Shown here: one piece after another, positions 11,514 to 18,689 of the stretch
Layout: every line of letters begins with the position of its first letter
Numbering within the stretch: the stretch's first letter is position 1
Assembly (NCBI GenBank): GCA_903838565.1
Contig: CAILZB010000060.1
Span: forward strand, 62,001 to 126,000
Length of the DNA stretch: 64,000 nt
DNA from: an uncultured beta proteobacterium
GTDB lineage: Bacteria > Pseudomonadota > Gammaproteobacteria > Burkholderiales > Burkholderiaceae_C
Direction: 5' to 3'
Notes under the pieces: model-generated
Seen by the model: only the letters and a program-made list of their open reading frames with translations
Told to the model about the DNA's origin: nothing
Database searches by the model: none
Position numbers and translations under genes: made by a program

Positions 11514-12737
11514 ATGCAACGCGACATTTTGATTGTTGGCTGCGGCATCTTTGGCGCGGCCATTGCCTGGAACTTGGGGCGTCGAGGCCTGGGGCATCGG
11601 GTGCTGATCGTGGATCGTCAGCCCCCAGCCAGTGGTGCGACCAGTCGAGCGGCCGGCTTGGTCACACAGGTGCGATCCGACCCGGCCCTGCAAGCTCTGG
11701 CGGGTGAAACGCTGGCGGCCATTGATGTACTCCAGGCGCGCTTTGGGGAGGATGTGGGCTGCCACCGCGTCGGTGCGTTGCACGTCGGCCCGCTAGCCCA
11801 GCAAGCGGCTTTGGCAGCCATGCTGACGGTTTGCACGGAGGCCGGCATTCGAGGTCAGTGGCAGGACAAGGCGCAGGTGCTGGCCCAGTCACCCTGGCTC
11901 AACCCCGATGCCTTTGACGTTGCCGCATTCTTCCCGGACGAGTGTTTTGTTGATCCCTACTTGCTGGCCAGCGCCTATTTGCGCGGCGCCCAGCAGATGG
12001 GTGCCAAGCTGCGACTCGATACCCGCGTGGCGCAGATTGCGCATCAAGCGGGCGCGGTAACGGGTGTCGTGCTTGAGGACGGCACTGCGCTGCCCGCTCG
12101 TATTGTGGTGAACGCGGCGGGGGCATGGAGCAATTTGCTCAGTGTCGAACTGGGGTTGCCCTTGCCCATGGCACCGGTGCGCAGCCAATATTGGATCACC
12201 GAGCGCTTGCCGGAATTTTCCCCCGGCACGCCTATCGTTTTCATGACCGATATTCGTGCCTACGCCAGACCTGAAGTCGGTGCACTTTTGTTCGGCATCC
12301 GTGAAAGCGCACCGGCAGTGGCAGCACCCCGGGAATTGCCTGAGAACCTGCAAGGCTTCGTCTTTGATGCCGCGGACCCGGACGGCTGGGGCAACCTGGC
12401 GCAGGCATTTGAACCCCTGAGCCGCTATTTCCCTGCCATTGAGCGGCTCGGCATTGCACACTACATCACGGGCCCAAGCAACTACACGCCGGACGGTCAA
12501 CCGATTGTGGGAGCCAGCGCCGCGATCGCAGGTCTGCTGGTAGCGACCGGTTGCAACGGATCGGGCATTACCTATTCGGCGGGAGTGGGGCGGCTGATCA
12601 CCGAGCTGATTTGCGGTGAAACTCCTTTTGTGGATGCCAGCCGGCTTGACCCCTCACGTGCGCTTCAGATCGATCCCTTTTCCCCTACATTTCTCCAGGC
12701 CTGTGCCCATGCACGTGCCACCAAATCCACCGGATAA
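11514..12737 (+). CDS. FAD-dependent oxidoreductase, DAO family (glycine/D-amino-acid or sarcosine oxidase type)
   Basis: This 407-residue flavoprotein has an N-terminal dinucleotide-binding motif (ILIVGCGIFGAAIAWNLG), SGATSRAAGLV typical of DAO enzymes, and a C-terminal FAD-contact region (YTPDGQPIVGAS, ATGCNGSGITYSAGVGRLI). Members oxidise secondary or D-amino acids such as sarcosine, dimethylglycine, glycine or D-amino acids. It has no signal peptide. It stands alone: 434 bp after the glycerate kinase and 224 bp before the molybdenum hydroxylase genes, which are on the same strand. If it releases glyoxylate from glycine it would feed the upstream island, but the substrate is unknown. Confidence 0.8.
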   Translation: MQRDILIVGCGIFGAAIAWNLGRRGLGHRVLIVDRQPPASGATSRAAGLVTQVRSDPALQALAGETLAAIDVLQARFGEDVGCHRVGALHVGPLAQQAALAAMLTVCTEAGIRGQWQDKAQVLAQSPWLNPDAFDVAAFFPDECFVDPYLLASAYLRGAQQMGAKLRLDTRVAQIAHQAGAVTGVVLEDGTALPARIVVNAAGAWSNLLSVELGLPLPMAPVRSQYWITERLPEFSPGTPIVFMTDIRAYARPEVGALLFGIRESAPAVAAPRELPENLQGFVFDAADPDGWGNLAQAFEPLSRYFPAIERLGIAHYITGPSNYTPDGQPIVGASAAIAGLLVATGCNGSGITYSAGVGRLITELICGETPFVDASRLDPSRALQIDPFSPTFLQACAHARATKSTG

Positions 12738-12961
12738 CCAGATACTTTTACCCGGAAAACCCGCGTATTCAACACACCTTCGAAACAGGGATTGGCGGGT
12801 ACCGGTCGCTCGCTGGCACCGACAGCATGCCCAAAGCCGACGCCCGTTTTCCGGCCAAGAACCAAGACTTCAGCGCGTCCGCCCGTGTCGATGCACAATT
12901 CTGATTTTCAGCGTCAGATTTCCCCGAACCATCACGTTGCCGAGATTGAATAGGAACGGCC

Positions 12962-13420
<459 letters not shown>

Positions 13421-13443
13421 ACCACCTACGCGAGGAAGTCACC

Positions 13444-15729
13444 ATGCATTTCGATGCTGCAACCCTGGATATGGCCAAAGGCCAAATGCCCAAAGGGCTT
13501 CTCGCCCTCGTGCAACGTGCGCAGGTCGCGTCCAAGGCCACGGCCAGCGACGGTCTGATACGGCGAAGTTTCCTGAAGATGGGCGTGGTCTCGGGGTTTG
13601 CACTGGGCGCCTATCCGCTGGTAGCCGCCGCGCAAGGAACGGTTTCCGACGCTGCCCCATCCGGGCTCAAGCCCTTTGAGCAGCCCGCTGCCTTTGTCCA
13701 CATCGAATCGGATGGCAGCGTCACTGTGACCATCAACCGGCTGGAGTTTGGACAGGGTGTGCTGACCGCTTTGCCCATGTGCCTGGCAGAGGAGTTGGAT
13801 GCCGACTGGAGCAAGGTGCGCGCGGAGCATGGCGATGCCGATCCGGCTTACGTGGATCCGGCCTATGGCATGCACATCACCGGCGGTTCGGGCTCCATCA
13901 AGCGCTCTTTCATGCAGTACCGTGAACTGGGGGCCAGGGCCCGCGCCATGCTGGTGGCTGCGGCCGCTTCGCGTTGGGGCGTTGACGTCAGCACCCTGCG
14001 CACAGCGAACGGCAGGGTTTTGGGCGCGGGTGGCCAGTCCATCGGATACGGGGAACTGGCTGACAGTGCCATGAAGATGCCGGTGCCGCAAACGGTGGCA
14101 CTGAAAGAAGCGAAGGACTTCCGCATCATCGGCAAGGCGACCCCGCGTTTGGATGGTCGGGACAAGTCCAGCGGCAAGCAGAACTTTGGCATCGATGTGC
14201 AATTGCCCGGCATGCTGACCGCAGTGGTGGCTCACCCAGCGGTGTTTGGTGCCAAGATCAAGTCGCTGGACGATACCGCTGCCAAAGCGGTCCCGGGCGT
14301 CAAGGCCGTGCTGCGCATGCCAACCGACCGGGGTGGTGAGGGGGTGGCTGTGATCGCCCTGGGCTATTGGGCTGCCAAGCAAGGTCGCGACCAGCTCAAA
14401 CTGGAGTGGGATACCTCTGGCGTCCAGAAGGTGGATAGCGCCGCCCAACTGGCCAGCTACCAGGCCCTGGCCAAGACGACCGGCTTTGTGAAGTTCAATG
14501 CTGATGTGGGGCCGCTGGCCAAAGCACCCAAGAAGATCAGCGCCGAGTTCACTTTCCCCTACCTGGCTCACGCGCCCATGGAACCGCTGAACTGCACCGT
14601 GCACCTCAGCGGCGACGGAGCAGACGCCAAGGCCGACCTCTATCTGGGCACCCAAATGCCAGGTTTGGACGGCATGGCGGCGGCCAAGGTGCTGGGTCTG
14701 GCTCCGCAACAGGTCAAGGTCCATGTGCAAATGGCGGGTGGCGGATTTGGCCGGCGCGCCGTGCCCACGGCCGATTACGTGGCGGAAGCCTGTACGGTTG
14801 CCAGGCTGGCCATGGCGGCTGGGGTGAACGCCCCCATTCGCGTGCTGTGGAGCCGCGAGGACGACATCAAAGGTGGCTACTACCGCCCCATGCACGTGCA
14901 CCGCGCCGACATTGGCTTTGATGCCAGTGGCAAGGTGCTGGCCTGGGACCATGTCATCGTGGGCCAGTCCATCGTCCAAGGCACGCCGTTTGAAGGCATG
15001 ATGATCAAGGACGGCATAGACGCCACCATCGTCGAAGGCATGCGCGATCCGTACGACGTGCCCATGCGCCTGTCGGTGCACCATCCCAGGGTCAATGTGC
15101 CGGTGCTGTGGTGGCGCAGCGTGGGCTCCACCCACACCGCCTATGTCATGGAAACCTTGGTCGATGAGATCGCCCGTGCCACCCACCAGGACCCGGTGGC
15201 CTACCGTCTGAAGCTCATGGGCGACAAGCACCCCCGCCACAAGGCGGCACTGATGCTTGCGGTGGAAAAGTCAGGCTATGGCAAACGCCAGCTGCCCAAG
15301 GGCCAGGCCTGGGGTGTTGCCGTACATGAATCGTTTGACACGGTGGTGGCCTACGTGGCAGAGGCCTCGGTCAACCATGGGTTGCCGAAGTTGCACGCGT
15401 TGACTGCCGCCGTGCACTGCAACCTGGCGGTCAATCCCAAGACCATTGAAGCCCAGGTGCAGGGCGCAGCGCTGATGGGTCTGGGCACCTGCCTGCCCGG
15501 TGCCGCCATCACGCTCAAGGACGGCCAGGTCGAGCAAAGCAATTTCTCCGACTATGTCGTTGCTCGCATTTCCGACATGCCCAAGATCGCGGTACACATC
15601 GTGCCCAGCGCAGAACCCCCCACCGGCATGGGAGAGCCTGGTCTGCCCCCGTTAGCGCCCGCCTTTGCCAATGCCATCGCCAGGTTGACCGGCAAAACGC
15701 CGCGCAGCCTGCCGTTCAAGCTGGCCTGA
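13444..15729 (+). CDS. Molybdopterin-binding large subunit of aldehyde oxidase/isoquinoline 1-oxidoreductase (beta type), Tat-exported
   Basis: This 761-residue protein of the xanthine dehydrogenase family hydroxylates a heterocycle or aldehyde at a Mo centre. A twin-arginine motif (IRRSFLKMG, Arg 40-41) followed by a hydrophobic stretch ending VAAAQ indicates Tat export of the folded complex with its small subunit. MAGGGFGRRAV and MGEPGLPPLAPAFANAI are family motifs; the Glu of GEPG matches the catalytic glutamate. FAD motifs are absent, as in IorB-type enzymes, which usually pass electrons to a cytochrome or quinone. It starts 23 bp after the small subunit. The true substrate is unknown; isoquinoline is only the family name. 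Confidence 0.88.
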   Translation: MHFDAATLDMAKGQMPKGLLALVQRAQVASKATASDGLIRRSFLKMGVVSGFALGAYPLVAAAQGTVSDAAPSGLKPFEQPAAFVHIESDGSVTVTINRLEFGQGVLTALPMCLAEELDADWSKVRAEHGDADPAYVDPAYGMHITGGSGSIKRSFMQYRELGARARAMLVAAAASRWGVDVSTLRTANGRVLGAGGQSIGYGELADSAMKMPVPQTVALKEAKDFRIIGKATPRLDGRDKSSGKQNFGIDVQLPGMLTAVVAHPAVFGAKIKSLDDTAAKAVPGVKAVLRMPTDRGGEGVAVIALGYWAAKQGRDQLKLEWDTSGVQKVDSAAQLASYQALAKTTGFVKFNADVGPLAKAPKKISAEFTFPYLAHAPMEPLNCTVHLSGDGADAKADLYLGTQMPGLDGMAAAKVLGLAPQQVKVHVQMAGGGFGRRAVPTADYVAEACTVARLAMAAGVNAPIRVLWSREDDIKGGYYRPMHVHRADIGFDASGKVLAWDHVIVGQSIVQGTPFEGMMIKDGIDATIVEGMRDPYDVPMRLSVHHPRVNVPVLWWRSVGSTHTAYVMETLVDEIARATHQDPVAYRLKLMGDKHPRHKAALMLAVEKSGYGKRQLPKGQAWGVAVHESFDTVVAYVAEASVNHGLPKLHALTAAVHCNLAVNPKTIEAQVQGAALMGLGTCLPGAAITLKDGQVEQSNFSDYVVARISDMPKIAVHIVPSAEPPTGMGEPGLPPLAPAFANAIARLTGKTPRSLPFKLA

Positions 15730-15743
15730 AGCGAGCCAGAGGC

Positions 15744-16769
15744 ATGGAAAGCCTGGACCTGCGGGTATTGGCCGATGCGCTGCAATGGCGTCTGGCGGGC
15801 CACGGAGTAACGCTGATGACCGTGGTGGAAACCTGGGGCAGTGCGCCCAGACCGCCCGGTGCGCTCTTGGCCTTGAGGGACGATGGCGTCGTCAGCGGTT
15901 CGGTCTCCGGTGGCTGTGTGGAAGACGATCTGATTGCCCAGACCAAGGCCGCGTCGCAAGCGCATGCAGTGGCTGCGTCCCGGGCGCCCGAACGACCATC
16001 CATGATGGCTTATGGCGTCAGCAAAGAAGAGGCCGCCCGCTTTGGATTGCCCTGTGGCGGAACGTTGCGCTTGGTTCGTGAACCTTTGCTCGATACCCAC
16101 TGGGTGCAGGAGCTACTGGAACGAACCACCCGCCACGAACTGGTGGCCCGTCAACTGACCTTGTCGAGCGGCGCGGTGAGCCTGCTTCCCGCGACGCGCG
16201 GCCAGAGCATGCACTTTGACGGCATCCTGCTAAGCACCGTGTTTGGCCCCAAGTGGCGCCTGTTGTTGATTGGCGCGGGTCAGTTGTCACAAGCCGTCGC
16301 GCAGATCGCGCTGATGCTGGACTTTGAGGTGCTGGTTTGCGATCCGCGCGAGGAATACGCGCCCATGATGAACCTGGCCGGTGTGAGTCGTGTCCTGGGC
16401 ATGCCAGATGATGTGGTGCGCGAGTTGGTGCCCGATGCGCACACCGCCATCGTGGCGCTGACCCACGACCCAAAGCTTGACGATATGGCCCTGATGGAGG
16501 CCTTGCGCACCAACGCGTTTTACGTCGGTGCGCTGGGCTCACGGCGCAACCAGGCTGCGCGCAAGCAGCGCCTGGCTGAGCACTTTGATCTATCCGCAGC
16601 AGAATTGGCGCGCCTGCACGGACCGGTAGGCTTGTTCATTGGCGCCAAAACACCGGCCGAGATTGCCGTGTCGGTGGTGGCCCAAATCATCCAGTTCAAA
16701 AATGCCAAGCTTGATTCACAAACCTTGATCGAGCCATCGCCGTGCGCGACGCCCCTGCCACAGTCCTGA
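15744..16769 (+). CDS. xdhC: XdhC family molybdenum enzyme maturation protein
   Basis: This 341-residue XdhC/CoxI protein has an N-terminal XdhC_CoxI domain (MTVVETWGSAPRPPGALLAL, SGGCVEDDL) and a C-terminal Rossmann domain (LLLIGAGQLSQAVAQIAL, YVGALGSRRN). The family binds and protects sulfurated molybdenum cofactor and inserts it into xanthine-dehydrogenase-type enzymes. It begins 14 bp after the large-subunit gene, so it serves that enzyme. Its 3' end overlaps the start of the broken nucleotidyltransferase by 28 bp, a normal translational-coupling arrangement in intact relatives. Confidence 0.88.
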   Translation: MESLDLRVLADALQWRLAGHGVTLMTVVETWGSAPRPPGALLALRDDGVVSGSVSGGCVEDDLIAQTKAASQAHAVAASRAPERPSMMAYGVSKEEAARFGLPCGGTLRLVREPLLDTHWVQELLERTTRHELVARQLTLSSGAVSLLPATRGQSMHFDGILLSTVFGPKWRLLLIGAGQLSQAVAQIALMLDFEVLVCDPREEYAPMMNLAGVSRVLGMPDDVVRELVPDAHTAIVALTHDPKLDDMALMEALRTNAFYVGALGSRRNQAARKQRLAEHFDLSAAELARLHGPVGLFIGAKTPAEIAVSVVAQIIQFKNAKLDSQTLIEPSPCATPLPQS

Positions 16770-17196
16770 TCCTGGCCAGTGGCCGCGGCAAGCGCTTTCA
16801 AGCCTTCGGTGGGCAGGGCTCCAAGCTGGACGCCCTGCTCCACGGCAAGCCGGTGTTGCCGCACACACTGGATGCGGTGCGTGCAAGCGGCCTGACCTAT
16901 CGCTTGGAAGCGGCGCCGCACCCCGGCATGGGCGACTCCATTGCCGCAGCAGTGAGAGCGAGCTTTGACGCAAACGGCTGGCTTGTCCTCCCCGGTGATT
17001 TGCCCCTGATTCAAAGCGAGACGTTGCGCGGGATTGCGCAGGCATTGCATCAGCACCCAGTTGTCGTACTAGTTTTTCAAGGCAAGCGAACCTTGCTACC
17101 GAATTGACAGTGCATGACCTCGGCTGTGTAGCCGATATAGACACGGTCGATGATTTGACCGCGGCCAGTGCAATTGCCGCAACGATTTCAAGGTGA
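16742..17196 (+). pseudogene. Disrupted MobA-like molybdenum cofactor nucleotidyltransferase (MocA type)
   Basis: The first 121 codons encode the N-terminal part of a MobA-like NTP transferase (VLILASGRGKRFQAFGG, HPGMGDSIAAAV, WLVLPGDLPLIQ) and end in an early TGA at 17105-17107. The family C-terminus (VHDLGCVADIDTVDDLTAA) continues in a different frame from about 17104 to the stop at 17194-17196. Intact relatives are near 200 residues and carry about 40 to 45 residues, including the PVGF region, between these parts, so an internal deletion has also shifted the frame. The product should be inactive. MocA proteins convert molybdopterin to the cytosine dinucleotide form used by this enzyme class, so the upstream enzyme would need a paralogue elsewhere. 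Confidence 0.75.
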
Positions 17197-17543
17197 TCAT
17201 TTCATCCGTCGAATTCCCGTCTTGGGGATCAATTTCCGTGCGGGAAATCGTTCAAGTCGGAGCCACTATTCCCTGAATATCAAAAGGGCGATTCAACAGG
17301 TTGAAGCTTCGCCGCAAACTCCACTTCTGTGGGTACTGCGCGATCGTCTGGATTGGCCAATCTGACGGACCCAGGTCAGCGACGCTGGGCGGTTGCAATC
17401 AACGATGCTGAACAGCCAATCAAGGCCACAAACGGGTTTCCCTTGCTTGAGTGTCCGGCGCCGCCCGCCGCCCGCCGCGCACCTGTCGCTTCGGGCGGCA
17501 AAAGGGGCCAGCGTCTCAGGCTGCCGATATACTCAATTCGCCC
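17197..17543 (+). other. 347-bp degenerate spacer before metX
   Basis: This spacer contains no intact gene. It holds a fragment resembling the 5' part of the 2Fe-2S subunit gene (17273-17365) and perhaps further traces of the same gene up to about 17440 (AINDAEQPIKA in another frame). The last 100 bp should contain the metX promoter, but no convincing -35/-10 pair stands out. Confidence 0.55.
17273..17365 (+). pseudogene. Remnant of a second IorA-like 2Fe-2S subunit gene
   Basis: Thirty codons followed by TGA translate to a peptide matching residues 4-33 of the 2Fe-2S subunit at 12962. By hand alignment without gaps, 16 of 30 positions are identical, including the block TPLLW-x-LRD. At DNA level the stretch CCACTTCTGTGGG is shared. 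The frame stops just where the cysteine motif should begin. It has no start codon or ribosome-binding site of its own. The most likely explanation is a decayed second molybdenum hydroxylase gene set. Confidence 0.65.
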
Positions 17544-18689
17544 ATGCTCATCGCCACACCCCAATCGATGCACTTCCCGGCCGCCTTGCCACTGCAAAGC
17601 GGCGCGTCGATTCGCGGCTACGACCTGAGCTTCGAGACCTATGGAGAGCTCAACGCCGACCACTCCAATGCGGTGCTCGTGTGCCACGCTCTCAACGCCT
17701 CGCACCATGTGGCTGGCGTCTACGCCGGGCAGGAAAAATCCGAGGGCTGGTGGGACAACATGATCGGCCCCGGCAAGCCGGTGGACACCGACAAATTCTT
17801 CGTCATCGGCGTGAACAACCTGGGTTCGTGTTTCGGCTCCACCGGTCCCATGCACACCAACCCCGACACCGGCCGCGTCTATGGCGCAGACTTCCCGGTG
17901 GTCACGGTGGAGGACTGGGTCGATGCCCAGGCGCGACTGCTCGATGTGCTGGACATTCAGACGCTGGCGGCCGTGCTCGGCGGCAGCCTGGGCGGGATGC
18001 AGGCGCTGGGCTGGTCGCTGCAATACCCGCAGCGCGTGCGCCACGCGGTGGTGGTGGCCAGCGCGCCCAACCTCACGGCCGAGAACATCGCCTTCAACGA
18101 GGTCGCGCGCCGCGCCATCGTGACCGACCCGGATTTTCACGGCGGACATTTCTACCAGCACGGCGTGACCCCCAAGCGCGGCCTGCGCATCGCCCGCATG
18201 ATCGGCCACATCACGTATCTGAGCGACGACGTGATGAATGAAAAATTCGGCCGGCAGTTACGCGACACGCTCGTCGGCGAGGAAGGCCCGGGAGCTTACA
18301 AGTATTCCACCCAGGACGTCGAGTTTCAGATCGAGAGCTACCTGCGCTACCAGGGCGACAAGTTTGCCGAGTACTTCGACGCCAACACCTATTTGCTGAT
18401 CACCCGCGCCTTGGACTACTTCGATCCGGCGCGCGCATTCGACGGCAATCTGAGCCTGGCGCTGGCCCGTGCCTCGGCGAAGTTCCTGCTCGTGAGCTTC
18501 ACCACCGACTGGCGCTTCTCGCCCCAGCGCAGCCGCGAAATCGTCAAGGCGCTGCTGGACAACCGCAGAAGCTTGAGCTACGCGGAAATCGATGCGCCCC
18601 ACGGGCACGACGCCTTCCTGCTCGACGATGCGCGCTACCTGGGCGTGATGCGATCCTATTTCGACGGCATCGCCAAGGAGCTGGCATGA
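17544..18689 (+). CDS. metX: Homoserine O-acyltransferase (acetyl/succinyl) MetX
   Basis: This 381-residue alpha/beta-hydrolase acylates homoserine, the first committed step of methionine synthesis. The nucleophile Ser about 148 sits in [12 protein letters not shown] and the catalytic His in [12 protein letters not shown] near the C-terminus. The start ATG 17544 gives the usual family N-terminus ([11 protein letters not shown]). It overlaps metW by 4 bp, the standard metXW coupling of proteobacteria. Betaproteobacterial MetX enzymes may use succinyl-CoA rather than acetyl-CoA; the sequence alone does not settle this here. Confidence 0.95.

Follow-up and report, generated by a model that had tools for sequence, protein, structure and literature searches.

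Between mocA and metX of an uncultured betaproteobacterium lies a short interval that a preliminary description had read, from position 17273 onwards, as a second, fossil 2Fe-2S subunit gene, left from a former tandem of two molybdenum-hydroxylase operons. Of which gene is this interval a remnant, and did a second operon once stand here? We followed these questions in the window, by which we mean the whole stretch of 64,000 nucleotides of contig C60 that was analysed, in the remainder of its genome (4,345,435 bases, 4.35 Mb, in 141 contigs) and in related genomes.

A small-subunit fragment behind the resident operon

The interval stands behind a resident molybdenum-hydroxylase operon, whose features are collected with those of the interval in Table 1. 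The order iorA-iorB-xdhC-mocA is also found in G240, a family member of another genus, with the first three genes 87, 77 and 77% identical to those of the window, and because of this shared order the window mocA is most likely a member of the resident operon. PMC2997495 describes XdhC-type chaperones as well as MocA, the enzyme that makes the cytosine-dinucleotide form of the cofactor. Four of the five genomes of the genus, G004 being the exception, encode a protein closely related to the 12962 protein (E<=1e-60). The small subunit of G240 (L223:10807-11241) matches the 12962 protein at 87% over 145 residues, as against 82-83% identity for the nearest members of the genus, and this slightly closer relationship may hint at a transfer of the resident operon.

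Table 1 Features of the resident operon and of the interval before metX (window coordinates).
Feature	Position	Strand	Remark
Small subunit, 2Fe-2S, IorA-like, intact	12962..13420	+	Resident operon; lineage differs from that of the stub
Large subunit, molybdopterin-binding, IorB-like, open	13444..15729	+	Resident operon
XdhC-family maturation factor, open	15744..16769	+	3' end runs into the beginning of mocA
Broken mocA (molybdenum cofactor cytidylyltransferase)	16742..17196	+	116 N-terminal codons in frame, C-terminal remnant in another frame
Stub of an iorA2-type 2Fe-2S small-subunit gene, codons 2-34 (5' end)	17261..17359	+	Homology
Stretch without assignment, from behind the stub to the native metX leader	17360..17475		Includes AINDAEQPIKA (17395-17427)
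metX with native leader	17476..18689	+	Leader homology to G002 from about 17476

Compared residue by residue, 17273-17362 agrees with residues 4-33 of the 12962 protein at 16 of 30 positions, which reproduces the count of 16 identities in thirty codons given before; the strand, the distance of about 4.3 kb from the intact gene and the flanking mocA and metX had likewise been given correctly. The homology begins 12 bases before the proposed start. We use IorA2, a label coined in this analysis, for a second lineage of small subunits, and the IorA2 protein of G001 matched the window at 17261-17359, 99 bases or 33 codons that correspond to a 2Fe-2S small-subunit N-terminus, with 23/33 identities (E=4e-11); translated searches of the stretch thus return significant IorA-type matches. 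The 12962 protein found the stub at E=1e-6 when searched against the window only and at E=0.0066 (C60:79270-79353, window 17270-17353) when searched against the whole genome, where its six matches were itself, open frames of 57, 39 and 35% identity, the stub, and one at E=0.084 without assignment. At the DNA level the interval matched the start of the G001 iorA2 gene (E=1.7e-8). Alignment scores of the stub were 120 and 122 with two IorA2 proteins and 80 with the 12962 protein; the highest values reached in the respective sets of 2000 shuffles were 48, 49 and 45. Judged by these searches, the homology to 2Fe-2S small subunits is far above chance; that only 33 codons are involved and that Pfam profiles miss the fragment alone could speak for a fortuitous resemblance, but with these E values, and with none of the 2000 shuffles near, that explanation is refuted and its probability virtually nil.

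Behind the stub, the preliminary description had assigned AINDAEQPIKA to a further region of the small subunit. This assignment did not survive: comparison with small subunits gave p=0.06-0.105 in protein shuffles with three targets, and local DNA alignment of this second stretch with the five IorA2 genes of the genus gave p=0.20-0.83; we rejected it as a small-subunit piece. The corresponding alignment with the 12962 gene reached p=0.03, but the match lies elsewhere in the gene. An anchored collinear extension of about 35 bases past 17359 yielded p=0.02-0.25 (six targets, 100 shuffles each), so that iorA2 homology may continue, weakly supported, to about 17396. The beginning of homology to the metX leader of G002 sets the right bound of the remnant. 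The metX frame can be read from GTG 17451, and ATG 17544 aligns with the metX ATG of G001; by this alignment the latter is the likelier start. In G001 and G003, a gene read as an ABC-transporter ATP-binding protein lies upstream of metX.

The position of the stub within 350 bases before metX, its 33 open codons and an in-frame GTG upstream of it would be compatible with a present role, for example as a short peptide or as a regulatory leader of metX. However, simple consensus searches found no promoter-like or terminator-like site in 16700-17700, no Rfam family was detected in 12700-17800, and about 500 bases upstream of metX in each of G001-G004 contained no match to the stub. Such a role is extremely unlikely. 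Searches for repeats and tRNA genes gave nothing of use.

Lineage of the stub

IorA2 is open, full length and free of stops in all five genomes of the genus, at 83-100% identity to the G001 copy, and a gene for a large subunit follows it in each. The own genome carries its iorA2B2 pair at C60:208385, on the same contig as the window and about 129 kb away; this pair is of the stub's lineage, but open and full length. When we ranked 156 small-subunit rows against the stub (taken from the loci collected by then, some places being represented in several loci, and 60 rows listed), the five IorA2 proteins of the genus were the top matches besides the stub itself, with 21-23/33 identities and 46.6-51.6 bits, and the next-best row scored 42.4 bits. 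Four family members added later scored 34.3-42.0 bits. In a tree of 68 rows and 31 columns, which left out rows that were shorter than 26 residues, contained stops or were identical, the stub fell within the IorA2 clade of the genus with support of 99/81, a figure for which the program warns of few columns; one odd row from another genus (L064) fell beside it.

These comparisons also bear on the idea that the stub is a partial tandem duplicate of the 12962 gene. The 16/30 identities, the common strand, the distance of 4.3 kb and a DNA match of 34 bases at 82% fit such a duplication. By contrast, over the same 30 columns the IorA2 proteins of the genus share 18-21 residues with the stub; the five iorA2 genes match its DNA over 99-108 bases; and at seven diagnostic columns the stub agrees with IorA2 in four and with the 12962 protein in none. 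A duplicate of the 12962 gene is therefore contradicted and very unlikely. The alignments place the stub in the IorA2 lineage, distinct from the 12962 gene, and the proposal of a fossil second 2Fe-2S subunit gene is supported in this form. With its own genome's iorA2 the stub shares 23/33 residues and 68/99 bases, and because pS is 0.65 it is no recent copy of that gene.

The parent family of the stub is the xanthine-oxidase family. IorA2 falls below every NCBIfam cut-off, and the solved chain nearest to it is the small subunit of an aldehyde dehydrogenase (8gy3_B). The IorAB-like hydroxylases, among them isoquinoline 1-oxidoreductase and the deoxyribose dehydrogenase of Pseudomonas simiae (PMC6365646), combine a small 2Fe-2S subunit with a large molybdopterin subunit, as does the parent family of the stub, which is itself a fragment; the P. 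simiae enzyme oxidises deoxyribose.

Decay of the stub and of mocA

Several features of the stub set it apart from its intact orthologues. It has 33 codons where 155-158 are matched in those genes, the ATG that directly precedes the homologous start in the five intact iorA2 genes is absent from the window, and a TGA stop (17363-17365) stands right behind it. The homology stops ahead of the first conserved cysteine, so that no cluster cysteines are present. Read from an in-frame GTG within the mocA remnant (17168), the stub becomes part of a mechanical 65-codon ORF; a domain search found no Fer2 or Fer2_2 match in the stub or in the two ORFs over it. The GC content is 0.51-0.53 over 17000-17449 and 0.644 in the window as a whole, and third-position GC is 0.48 in the stub compared with 0.76-0.88 in the five intact orthologues.

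We next considered how the stub had diverged. Among 60 sites invariant in the five orthologues it shows 10 private differences, which affect 5 of the 10 third positions as against 5 of the 50 first and second positions (p=0.008). Its pairwise dN/dS of 0.09-0.21 lies within the range of intact pairs (0.05-0.28), values that come from a short sequence and from branches mixing functional and dead time. Because the private differences concentrate at third positions and the pairwise dN/dS is low, we read the stub as having diverged mostly while it was part of a functional gene and as having died later. The direction and number of the private changes do not by themselves demonstrate decay, since intact G004 is alike: 7/10 changes in the stub and 6/8 in G004 are from G/C to A/T, and G004 likewise has five such private differences at first or second codon positions (of 55 sites). 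Although the whole case for the stub rests on 99 bases, 17261-17359 is very probably a dead, non-functional stub of an IorA2-lineage gene, and most likely it makes no protein now.

Remnants of bacterial pseudogenes in intergenic DNA are well known, as PMC3899985 sets out. The stub resembles the remnants treated there in being truncated, in having lost its start and in having intact orthologues in relatives, and it differs only in the particular gene. Nothing here departs from a described enzyme family or from described intergenic gene remnants; this is ordinary gene decay, and the annotation gains a gene stub before metX.

The neighbouring gene needs a second correction. The preliminary description had placed mocA correctly as the left flank; that mocA is itself broken had been missed. 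The first 116 codons of the window gene, as far as 17089, share one frame; a gap of about 30 codons comes next, which takes in the GHPVGF segment typical of the MocA NTP-transferase domain, and the C-terminal remnant (17092-17193, stop 17194-17196) follows in another frame. A full NTP-transferase domain with GHPVGF was accordingly not found in the window mocA, whereas the segment is kept in intact copies, namely that of G001 and that of the own genome on contig C41. The window gene still reads as an ORF of 121 aa; an ORF of 1584 aa adjoins the intact copy on C41. We had considered a fusion with a G001-type 3' half and rejected it, as the C-terminus fits several other mocA genes slightly better than that of G001, and a mocA tree of 17 rows, from which 2 of the 18 loci had been left out because their alignments were short, does not fix the place of the window mocA. 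With the mocA of its own operon broken, the resident molybdenum hydroxylase probably draws on the copy of another contig. The mocA behind iorAB in G007, of another genus (L098:5087-5577), also matches in two frames, which may point to repeated loss of mocA from such operons or to an assembly error.

Origin of the remnant

A whole second unit of this kind is found in G001, where the row at L048:5566-10067 comprises a calcineurin-like phosphoesterase, mocA, iorA2 and iorB2. The G001 iorA2 (L048:7336-7812) resembles the stub in 23/33 residues and 71/99 bases and in having mocA directly upstream. Unlike the stub, it has the full 158 residues with both 2Fe-2S domains, it does not stand beside metX, and its start lies 4 bases behind the mocA stop as against 64 in the window, which makes the junction a different one. 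A family search with IorA2 found this clade in 9 of 399 genomes (E<=1e-66; at most nine candidates scored per genome), and mocA stands beside IorA2 in G001 alone among the nine, one of which (G353) offers a contig of only 4.4 kb. No mocA was found in the 8 kb before the own iorA2B2 (L053), and the metX loci of G001-G004 hold neither iorA2 nor iorB2 in the 1.9-8.2 kb upstream examined.

In the window, metX follows the stub in place of a linked iorB, and no remnant of iorB2 rose above shuffles between the two. The best lead, 17407-17523, matched the C-terminus of IorB2 at 15/39 positions (E=0.019; 446-base subject, 13 queries). We rejected it, since shuffles fail it (DNA p=0.22-0.50, protein p=0.19) and its right part matches the native metX leader of G002. 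The earlier proposal of two operons in tandem, the second largely deleted, is thus plausible in the light of the G001 row and unproven for want of an iorB2 trace and with one such arrangement in nine genomes. On balance we lean slightly towards a former complete iorA2B2 copy at this place.

That only a short 5' piece of iorA2 was copied or captured behind mocA, and that a full second operon never stood here, is possible but rather unlikely. Neither iorB2 nor any part of iorA2 past codon 46 or so could be traced above the chance level, which fits such an event, as do the open iorA2B2 elsewhere in the genome and the single family genome with mocA beside iorA2. However, a piece dead on arrival would not be expected to concentrate its differences at third positions, and pS to the own iorA2 argues against a recent copy. 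The stub moreover begins at the 5' end of the gene and is preceded by 6-7 bases identical to those in G002 and G004, too few for much weight.

The homology, the lineage, the breakage, the AT shift and the intact copies elsewhere are established by the comparisons above; for the preferred reading, a former gene copy that decayed in place, we infer the following course. A copy of iorA2, probably with iorB2, would once have stood behind mocA and before metX, where it would have evolved for a time under coding constraint before losing its function. The remaining iorA2 may then have gone in a deletion that started near codon 34 and ended shortly ahead of the metX leader, and the neighbouring mocA may have lost its 30 or so codons in the same eroding stretch. 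The genome would have borne these losses because it still has both iorA2B2 and mocA intact at other sites. Since intact copies of both stand elsewhere, one might go further and take the broken mocA and the stub as a single decay tract, in which mocA eroded together with a second molybdenum-hydroxylase unit behind it that died as a whole; we put this forward tentatively, as a reading with somewhat less than even prospects. If it is true, the resident IorAB depends on a distant mocA for its cofactor. In either form the locus is a routine case of how genes of a widespread enzyme family are gained and lost.

Finally, we surveyed the interval and its genes more widely. With the DNA from mocA to metX, 108 of the 399 family genomes gave matches (two candidates scored per genome). 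Among the best 29 mocA loci besides the own, 15 have xdhC or a large-subunit gene at most 1.5 kb ahead of mocA. An IorA gene behind mocA occurs at none of the 29, nor was one found in the 8 of these loci for which more DNA was taken. Searches of genome contigs with the IorA2 protein of G001 gave a longer list of loci; of the best 80, several with little upstream DNA and possibly lacking the own or near-genome records, 19 show xdhC, mocA or metX in the DNA examined. Among those 19, none has metX and none has mocA directly upstream of the IorA2-like gene. A distant DNA search of plasmids with 16700-17545 gave no match, while the IorA2 protein matched 383 plasmid records at E<=1e-40, the best among the matches listed having 64% identity.
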